From Nitrosomonas sp. (GTDB lineage: Bacteria > Pseudomonadota > Gammaproteobacteria > Burkholderiales > Nitrosomonadaceae): DNA of 33,260 nt. The DNA lies in NCBI GenBank assembly GCA_021774075.1, contig JAJFJK010000012.1, positions 1 through 33,260 of the forward strand, written 5' to 3'. How positions within the stretch are numbered: position 1 is the first letter of the stretch; the number at the start of each line of letters is the position of its first letter. This document shows, piece by piece, positions 1 to 18,017 of the stretch. The notes beneath the pieces were generated by a model. The model saw only the letters and a list, made by a program, of their open reading frames with translations, did not search any database and had not been told where the DNA came from. The translations under genes were made by a program, and so were the position numbers.

Positions 1-609
1 GGCGCTTATACGTGCTTTTATAAGCCCGTAAAACCTTCTGGTCACACGTCTCGACATATCCAGTATTTCCCTCCAAAGCTTGGATACTGGGTTTTTCATC
101 AATACTTAGAACCAACGCGTTAAGTGGCGGGTTCAAGTACAACCCAATAATATTCGCCGATTTTTCTGCAAATTCAGGATCGGTGCTGACACACCAGCTA
201 CGAGCTCTATGCAAATGAATACCTTCTTTCTTCAATGCTCGCCAAACTGCATGATTACTAGCTTCCAGCTGCTCAGCCAAGGTTGGGCAGTCCCATCTGA
301 CCAACCCTTCAGGTGGGCCTGTATCTAACTTGGATAACAGCTTGTCCCTAAACGCCTTTCCATATGTTTCCGGTTTCCCAGGCCGCTGCTCATCTTCAAG
401 CCCAGCAATACCTCGTTCAGCAAAGCGCCGACGCCACTTGCTGACTCGCGGCACAGACATTTTAAATTCCGCAGCAACCTCTTGGTTCTGCTTTCCTGTA
501 GCACAGGCTAAAATAATTCTAGCTGCTCCGCGCTGTGGCTTCGCGTAACTTTTTCCAAATAAACTTTTTGTGCTTCTGTAAGTATGATTTCTATTGCTTT
601 TCTAGGCAT
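1..609 (-). pseudogene. IS630-family transposase, truncated by the window edge and frameshifted near 531-537
   Basis: Reverse-strand translation: MPRKAIEIILTEAQKVYLEKVTRSHS then a change of frame to RGAARIILACATGKQNQEVAAEFKMSVPRVSKWRRRFAERGIAGLEDEQRPGKPETYGKAFRDKLL...LSIDEKPSIQALE; HTH plus DDE 'DEK' segment typical of IS630. Confidence 0.8.
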
Positions 610-16248: not shown

Positions 16249-17781
16249 TCACACCTGTGGATGTGCTTTTTCCAGTTTGGAATTTAGTTTATTCAATGCA
16301 CTGAGATAAGCCTTTGCGGAAGCCACAACAATATCCGTATCGGCGCCATGTCCATTAACAATCCGCGCATTCTTTTGCAAACGCACCGTCACTTCACCTT
16401 GTGAATCTGTCCCACAGGTAATGTTATTTACTGAGAATAATTGCAATTCAGCACCACTGGTTAATAACTTTTCTATCGCACAAAAAGTGGCATCAACCGG
16501 GCCGCTGCCCTGTGATTCCGCATGCAATTCATTGCCTTCATCCGAGATAATTAAACTTGCAAAGGGAATTTCCCCTGTTTCACAATGTATGGTTAATGAT
16601 AATAATCGATAACGTTCCTGCAATATCAATACTTCATCTGAAACCAGGGCGTGCAAATCTTCGTCAAATATATCGTGTTTCTTATCAGCCAGTTCTTTAA
16701 AACGCATAAACGTATGGTTCAGCATTTCCTCAGACTCCAGCTCAATCCCCAATTCCAATAGACGGCTCCTAAACGCATTACGCCCGGAGTGTTTACCCAA
16801 TAGCAATTTATTCGCGCCCCAGCCAACATCTTCAGCACGCATGATTTCATAGGTCTCACGATGCTTCAGGACGCCGTCCTGATGGATGCCTGATTCATGC
16901 GCAAATGCATTGGCACCCACAATTGCCTTATTGGGCTGCACAGGAAACCCTGTAATCCCTGAGACCAATTTACTGGCTGGAACAATATGTGTCGTATCGA
17001 TCTTGGTGTCACATGGAAAATAATCCCGACGTGTACGCACCGCCATAACAACTTCTTCCAGTGAAGCATTGCCGGCCCGCTCACCCAGGCCATTAATGGT
17101 GCATTCCACTTGGCGCGCACCATTCATCACGGCGCTCAATGAATTGGCGACAGCCAAGCCTAAATCATTATGGCAATGCACTGAAAAAACCGCTTTATCA
17201 GAATTCGGTATGCGCTCGCGCAAGGTATAAATTAATTTGCCAAATTGCTCTGGCATGGTGTAGCCAACCGTATCAGGAATATTTAATGTCGTCGCACCGG
17301 CATCAATAACAGCTTCTAATATCTGGCACAAAAAATCTATCTCGGAGCGCCCGGCATCCTCTGGTGAAAACTCAATATTATCCGTGTATTGACTGGCCCA
17401 TTTTATGGCCTTCACGGCTTGCGCAACCACCTGTTTTGGCGACATGCGCAATTTATTCTTCATATGTATCGGCGATGTCGCAATAAAAGTGTGTATGCGC
17501 GCTGAGTTAGCACCACGTAACGCTTCTCCGGTGCGTTTAATATCGGTTTCTATAGCACGCGCCAATCCGCAAACAACACTCCCTTTAACAATATCAGCTA
17601 CGGCTTTAACCGCCTCAAAATCTCCATTAGACGCTGCTGGAAATCCGGCCTCAATAACGTCCACACCCATACGTTCCAATTGCCAGGCGATACGCACCTT
17701 CTCTTCTTTCGTCATGGATGCACCAGGACTCTGCTCACCATCGCGCAGGGTGGTATCAAAAATAATTAAATGATCTTGCAT
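16249..17781 (-). CDS. leuA: 2-isopropylmalate synthase
   Basis: [57 protein letters not shown] upstream of ATG at 17781. Confidence 0.98.
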
Positions 17782-17873
17782 TACGCTCTCCACTTCTGGA
17801 AGAAATTTGTAAAAATACTAAAACTCAAAGTTAGAATTTTATTGGAAAGAAAAGAAAAAGAAGGGGGTGAAAT

Positions 17874-17960
17874 TTATGTGCGCGCAAAGCGCAGCAGTAA
17901 CCCCATCAACGTTAATGGGGTTGATAAATATCGTGAAATGAAAGGATTGATGACAAACAT
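17874..17960 (-). CDS. Putative 28-aa Leu-rich leader peptide upstream of leuA
   Basis: Minus strand ATG...TAA: MFVINPFISRYLSTPLTLMGLLLRFART; 6 Leu codons including TTA-CTG-CTG; lies in the about 235-nt pssA-leuA gap. No strong SD seen. Confidence 0.5.
   Translation of the reverse strand: MFVINPFISRYLSTPLTLMGLLLRFART
17899..17922. promoter_or_regulatory. 24-bp near-perfect palindrome in the leuA leader (hairpin or operator)
   Basis: AACCCCATCAACGTTAATGGGGTT: symmetric except for one C/A position pair; no T-run on either side. Confidence 0.65.
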
Positions 17961-18017
17961 AGTGCAGAATATAAATAGTTTTTTGTTTTAATGCAATAGC
18001 AACATGGCGCTTAATGC

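Follow-up and report, generated by a model that had tools for sequence, protein, structure and literature searches.

A conserved, predicted leaderless leucine leader peptide upstream of leuA in Nitrosomonas and related betaproteobacteria, with a candidate role for Rho

Leucine leaders are known from gamma- and epsilonproteobacteria and from actinobacteria. The uORF tnaC has a C-rich, G-poor site close by and no intrinsic terminator. For betaproteobacteria, no leucine leader was found in Rfam or in the open-access papers searched (subscription journals, including earlier attenuator surveys, were outside the scope). In E. coli leuL (Rfam RF00512, Leu_leader), a 28-aa leader with the Leu codons in mid-peptide is preceded by an SD-like GGAG, ends with a stop 92 nt before leuA, and is accompanied by a GC stem and a TTTTTTT terminator. 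The actinobacterial leuA leader (LEU element) is a short Leu-run leader upstream of leuA with no clear terminator, whose Leu codons pair with the leuA Shine-Dalgarno (SD) sequence in a pseudoknot (PMC1262725, PMC5784534); in that of C. diphtheriae, MNRANLLLLRRGGSQA, the Leu run is followed by Arg. The corynebacterial ilvB leader peptide is leaderless and has no SD, with the transcript starting at the AUG (PMC5784534; PMC4046766, citing Morbach 2000), and candidate terminators with polyU after them were reported upstream of ilvB (PMC1262725). Campylobacter jejuni LeuL contains rare Leu codons, and its RNA was reported to end shortly past the stop codon (PMC3847290). As for Rho, E. coli topAI is under Rho-dependent uORF control with a rut overlapping the uORF, and such sites are unstructured, rich in C and poor in G (PMC12121999); polyY tracts accompanying leader peptides were also proposed as Rho sites (PMC1262725). 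Likewise, toiL, other Rho-linked uORFs and the mycobacterial cys leaders lack an intrinsic terminator and have a C-rich, G-poor site close to them (PMC12121999, PMC1262725).

The window analysed here is a stretch of 33,260 nt from Nitrosomonas sp. (GenBank assembly GCA_021774075.1, contig JAJFJK010000012.1, positions 1 to 33,260), and all features given below lie on its minus strand. The gap between pssA (stop, 18018) and leuA (start, 17781) is 236 bp long and contains, as the original prediction held, an ORF of 28 codons (17960..17874) encoding MFVINPFISRYLSTPLTLMGLLLRFART*, with six Leu codons (TTA, TTA, TTG, TTA, CTG, CTG); this uORF is predicted to be leaderless, and relatives carry such a leader as well. 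Its Leu-Leu-Leu-Arg codons (TTA CTG CTG CGC) are at 17889..17900, and Leu at -2 was found in 64 of 67 divergent leaders. The downstream leuA (16249..17781) encodes a 2-isopropylmalate synthase of 510 aa of the leuA_bact type (NCBIfam TIGR00973 and NF002087), and its start is likely the ATG at 17781 after the SD GGAGAG (17786..17791), not the GTG at 17793 of the mechanical ORF list.

The proposed resemblance to E. coli leuL holds for the 28-aa length, the Leu codons and the stop 92 nt before leuA, but the window leader has no SD, carries its Leu codons at the end and has no terminator. No Rfam match was obtained in the window or relatives, the E. coli leuL control scoring 145.8 bits on RF00512; one weak match of locus L056 to Cis52_sRNA was below the threshold. 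With the LEU element it shares the short Leu-run leader upstream of leuA, followed by Arg as in C. diphtheriae, and the absence of a clear terminator, whereas the pairing of the Leu codons with the leuA SD is not conserved here (LLR-SD pairing, z = 0.04, p = 0.39, 67 leaders). The corynebacterial ilvB leader is translated without an SD from an AUG-start transcript, as is predicted for the window leader, and the two differ in the gene (ilvB) and in the branched-chain codons. C. jejuni LeuL differs in its rare Leu codons and reported RNA end. From the Rho-linked uORFs the window leader differs in that the signal consists of Leu codons and the role of Rho is a candidate one; moreover, the polyY motifs of the mycobacterial cys leaders were reported as not conserved, whereas the window-type tract is conserved (see below).

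The predicted promoter of the leader consists of a -35 element, TTGCAT (17991..17996), and, 17 nt from it, a -10 element, TATATT (17968..17973), which ends 7 nt before the uORF ATG. It had been remarked that the uORF has no good SD; this is correct, and none is expected since the message is predicted to be leaderless. Because the spacing from the -10 element to the ATG is fixed, the transcript start is predicted at, or a few bases from, the uORF AUG. In a leuA-blind scan of about 85,000 GTDB species genomes, which gave at least 119 stretches and at least 80 loci, 72 of 74 loci among the matches listed had TTG[CAT] in their -35 window, the -35/-10 spacer was 17 nt in 68 of these 74, and the gap between the -10 element and the ATG was 6-7 nt in 61; the search pattern contained neither the -35 element nor the spacer, and demanded TATATT with a gap of 5-12 nt to the ATG, not the narrow peak at 6-7 nt. 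Among the matches listed, leuA begins 81-134 nt downstream in 73 of 80 loci, whereas two (L169 and L198) reach a contig edge and five are without the uORF.

For the closer relatives, pssA was located in 60 of them, and the gap was read where leuA comes next. Every same-genus genome with pssA adjoining leuA has a uORF of 26-34 aa ending in Leu-Leu-Arg and then variable residues, with TATATT a few nt 5' of the ATG and with divergent N-terminal residues. Comparison of the intergenic regions favours the leader: the Leu residues are kept in the relatives compared and are encoded by differing synonyms (TTA, CTG, CTA, TTG). In the order, leuA was found in 253 of 300 genomes, and the pattern of promoter, ATG and Leu-Leu-Arg-GCGC matched in 67 of the 300 (reversed control, 5 genomes); as judged from leuA positions or locus inspection, 62 of these matches (21 families) precede leuA and 5 do not. 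Of the families sampled in the order, at least 21 have a uORF of 25-35 aa with the same Leu-Leu-Arg end 5' of leuA, and some families with leuA appear to be without it. The three pattern matches in 320 other genomes of the class do not have the leader form and, judged by their sequences, were taken as chance. The carriers include Nitrosomonas europaea, N. eutropha, N. oligotropha, N. communis, Nitrosospira multiformis, Nitrosovibrio tenuis, Candidatus Nitrotoga, Gallionella, Sulfuricella, Azoarcus taiwanensis and Denitromonas halophila. Frame 0 was open in all 67 leaders, as the selection outside the genus demanded, and the other two frames in 38 and 42 of the 67. Note that some sets were picked with patterns holding YTG-CGC, GCGC and the -10 element, so that outside the genus these letters are invariant partly because of the selection; no pattern asked for the -35 element, the tight distance from the -10 element to the ATG, the G-free tract or the hairpins P1 and P3 described below. 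The ORF stands above chance, the uORF, its Leu-Leu-Arg end, the promoter and the hairpin position being kept in the genus and further out.

The leader has a more stable fold than shuffled sequence (z = -2.2), and the P1 hairpin (17899..17922, AACCCCATTAACGTTGATGGGGTT), just 5' of the Leu-Leu-Arg codons, forms in the predicted fold. The 24-nt palindrome of the original prediction exists at these positions, but the string quoted for it is 22 nt long (17900-17921). P1 is stabler than dinucleotide shuffles across relatives (p = 2.5e-10), and its arms co-vary over the 67 divergent leaders (p = 3.5e-5). Over the last codons lies a mini-hairpin, P2 (TGCGC-TTTGC-GCGCA, 17879..17893), also present in sampled leaders; it is stabler than dinucleotide shuffles (p = 2.3e-12), a value that is partly circular because the GCGC arms were in the selection. 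As P2 persists where the C-terminal reading alters (LLLRVRAH, LLLRGRAH), the conserved thing is the GCGC hairpin, not the last residues. Right after the uORF stop follows a pyrimidine-rich, Rho-site-like tract (17844..17873) with no G in 30 nt; in the relatives, G is 1.8% over stop+1..15 and C is 42-50%, and the tract is unstructured. A C-rich, G-poor and unstructured RNA, as in Rho attenuators, is thus present near the uORF. The P3 hairpin (TAAAATTC-TAACTTT-GAGTTTTA, 17819..17841, predicted fold) lacks a terminator U-run; it is stabler than dinucleotide shuffles (p = 2e-11), and its arms co-vary weakly (p = 0.045, crude window). In several GC-rich families (loci L043, L056, L103, L125, L127, L140 and L146), a motif like CCC(A)CAATTCG..GCAGTACC recurs downstream of the C-rich tract and ahead of P3.

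On balance, we favour a betaproteobacterial type of leucine leader peptide that would act in cis and control leuA with no two-state terminator, possibly through Rho. Judged from the sequences compared, the uORF is very probably a translated cis-regulatory leader; as in ribosome-mediated leader-peptide regulation in general, a short ORF with cognate codons is conserved ahead of the biosynthetic gene. Leucine, in the form of Leu-tRNA, is probably its signal, and Rho is put forward tentatively as the effector. The dedicated promoter is predicted to start the transcript at or near the AUG of a uORF of 25-35 codons, and ribosomes would load on the leaderless message. The uORF closes with Leu-Leu-Arg, the short GC hairpin and the stop; next come the bare C-rich, G-free tract and, about 75-140 nt downstream of the uORF, leuA with its own SD. 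When Leu-tRNA is ample, the ribosome would get to the stop and depart, and Rho might then load at the tract of the bare leader, which is the simplest effector step, and terminate transcription before or early in leuA. When Leu-tRNA is scarce, a ribosome parked on the Leu codons would hold P1 and P2 open and would bar Rho from assembling on the leader or from reaching the polymerase, so that leuA would be made. A ribosome on the Leu codons should, however, reach only about the stop codon and leave the tract itself uncovered, and could do no more than shorten the loading site or hold Rho back from the polymerase; because the tract stays bare, the sign of the Rho model hinges on the more extended loading site or on Rho catching up with the polymerase. 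The use of CTG, a common codon in GC-rich genomes and unlike the rare codons reported for C. jejuni LeuL (PMC3847290), counts against the leucine-leader reading, as does the apparent absence of the leader from some families with leuA.

The original prediction had proposed a classical two-state transcription attenuator, in which P1 alternates with a terminator-like pairing of GGGGT and ACCCC before a U-rich tract. ACCCC is indeed at 17864-17868, both GGGGT and ACCCC exist in this one sequence with a C/U tract next, and the 28-aa length and the stop 92 nt before leuA are likewise those of leuL. However, the tract is a C/U tract here and is C-rich and G-free in relatives, with no terminator U-run, and the P1 3' arm and the tract are without co-evolved pairing in the relatives. 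Over 67 leaders, no conserved pairing of P1 or the Leu codons with the tract, P3 or the SD was above the cross-species controls; since a two-state attenuator should show pairing of the leader with downstream sequence, it is not supported. The mutually exclusive folds were not borne out by the fold model either: a ribosome footprint placed on the Leu codons or the stop changed neither SD access nor P3 nor downstream pairing. Intrinsic terminator-like sites with at least 6 T were at the shuffled level and were absent from all 36 GC-rich leaders (when at least 5 T were required, 12% after the stop vs 5% in shuffles), in a scan that recovered the E. coli leuL terminator as a positive control; nor is there an Rfam Leu_leader match. 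We thus consider the two-state attenuator improbable. A long-range antiterminator of the P2 3' arm with P3 was also tried and gave no signal.

Translational or mRNA-stability control, by a parked 5' ribosome shielding the leaderless message or by the leader tuning leuA translation, would agree with the lack of a terminator, the 5' end predicted to be leaderless and the P3 hairpin close upstream of leuA. We regard it as unlikely, as the tract does not specifically pair with the SD (sequestration of the SD by the C/U tract was rejected, own tract-SD pairing being weaker than cross-species pairing) and SD access in the fold model was the same whatever the ribosome position. Less credible still, and marginally below the two-state attenuator, is an arrest by the nascent peptide, with the C-terminal LLRxAR stalling the ribosome at the stop beside the tract in the manner of TnaC. 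In tnaC, the tract lies directly after the stop codon, as it does here, and LLR is conserved close to the stop; but the residues after LLR vary and even shift frame while the GCGC hairpin stays (LLLRVRAH, LLLRGRAH, LLLRTPRT), and stalling by free leucine would raise leuA under plentiful leucine, which is the wrong sign. A promoter with structured RNA only, the ORF being untranslated, would account for the absence of an SD before the ORF; it is very improbable, given that the start is fixed 6-7 nt after the -10 element, that Leu is kept by synonymous codons, and that the frame stays open in AT-rich genomes whose other frames carry stops.

The conserved anatomy without a terminator would offer a clean natural case for studying transcription control by leader peptides without alternative folds, in culturable ammonia oxidisers such as Nitrosomonas europaea. 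More speculative than the assignment of Rho as such is the wider view that such leaderless leader peptides form a family across the lineage which gates Rho instead of an intrinsic terminator and was retained with leucine synthesis despite exchange of the leuA type; a ribosome on the first ~28 codons of the message would then sense leucine starvation, and the RNA would need no fold switch.

The proposal of a Leu-codon leader before leuA is upheld by its conservation, with its own conserved promoter, even where the leuA isozyme type differs. The leader of locus L103 precedes a leuA_yeast-type synthase (NCBIfam TIGR00970), which is no orthologue of the leuA of the window, and the gene order psd-pssA-leader-leuA is retained there. 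The leader was seen before an apparent long leuA_yeast-type enzyme in two families (L103-L106 and L129), the NCBIfam check covering L103 only; the enzyme starts in L104-L106 resemble that of L103 by inspection. In a 1.3-Mb genome of another genus of the same family (L067), all that is left of the leader before leuA is a degraded remnant of its end, CTCTTGTATTCTGTACGTTAA, which suggests that the element was lost in a reduced genome. The leader and leuA were also seen in a MAG labelled Bordetella parapertussis (L167), whose leuA is 69% identical to that of the window; this label may be wrong.
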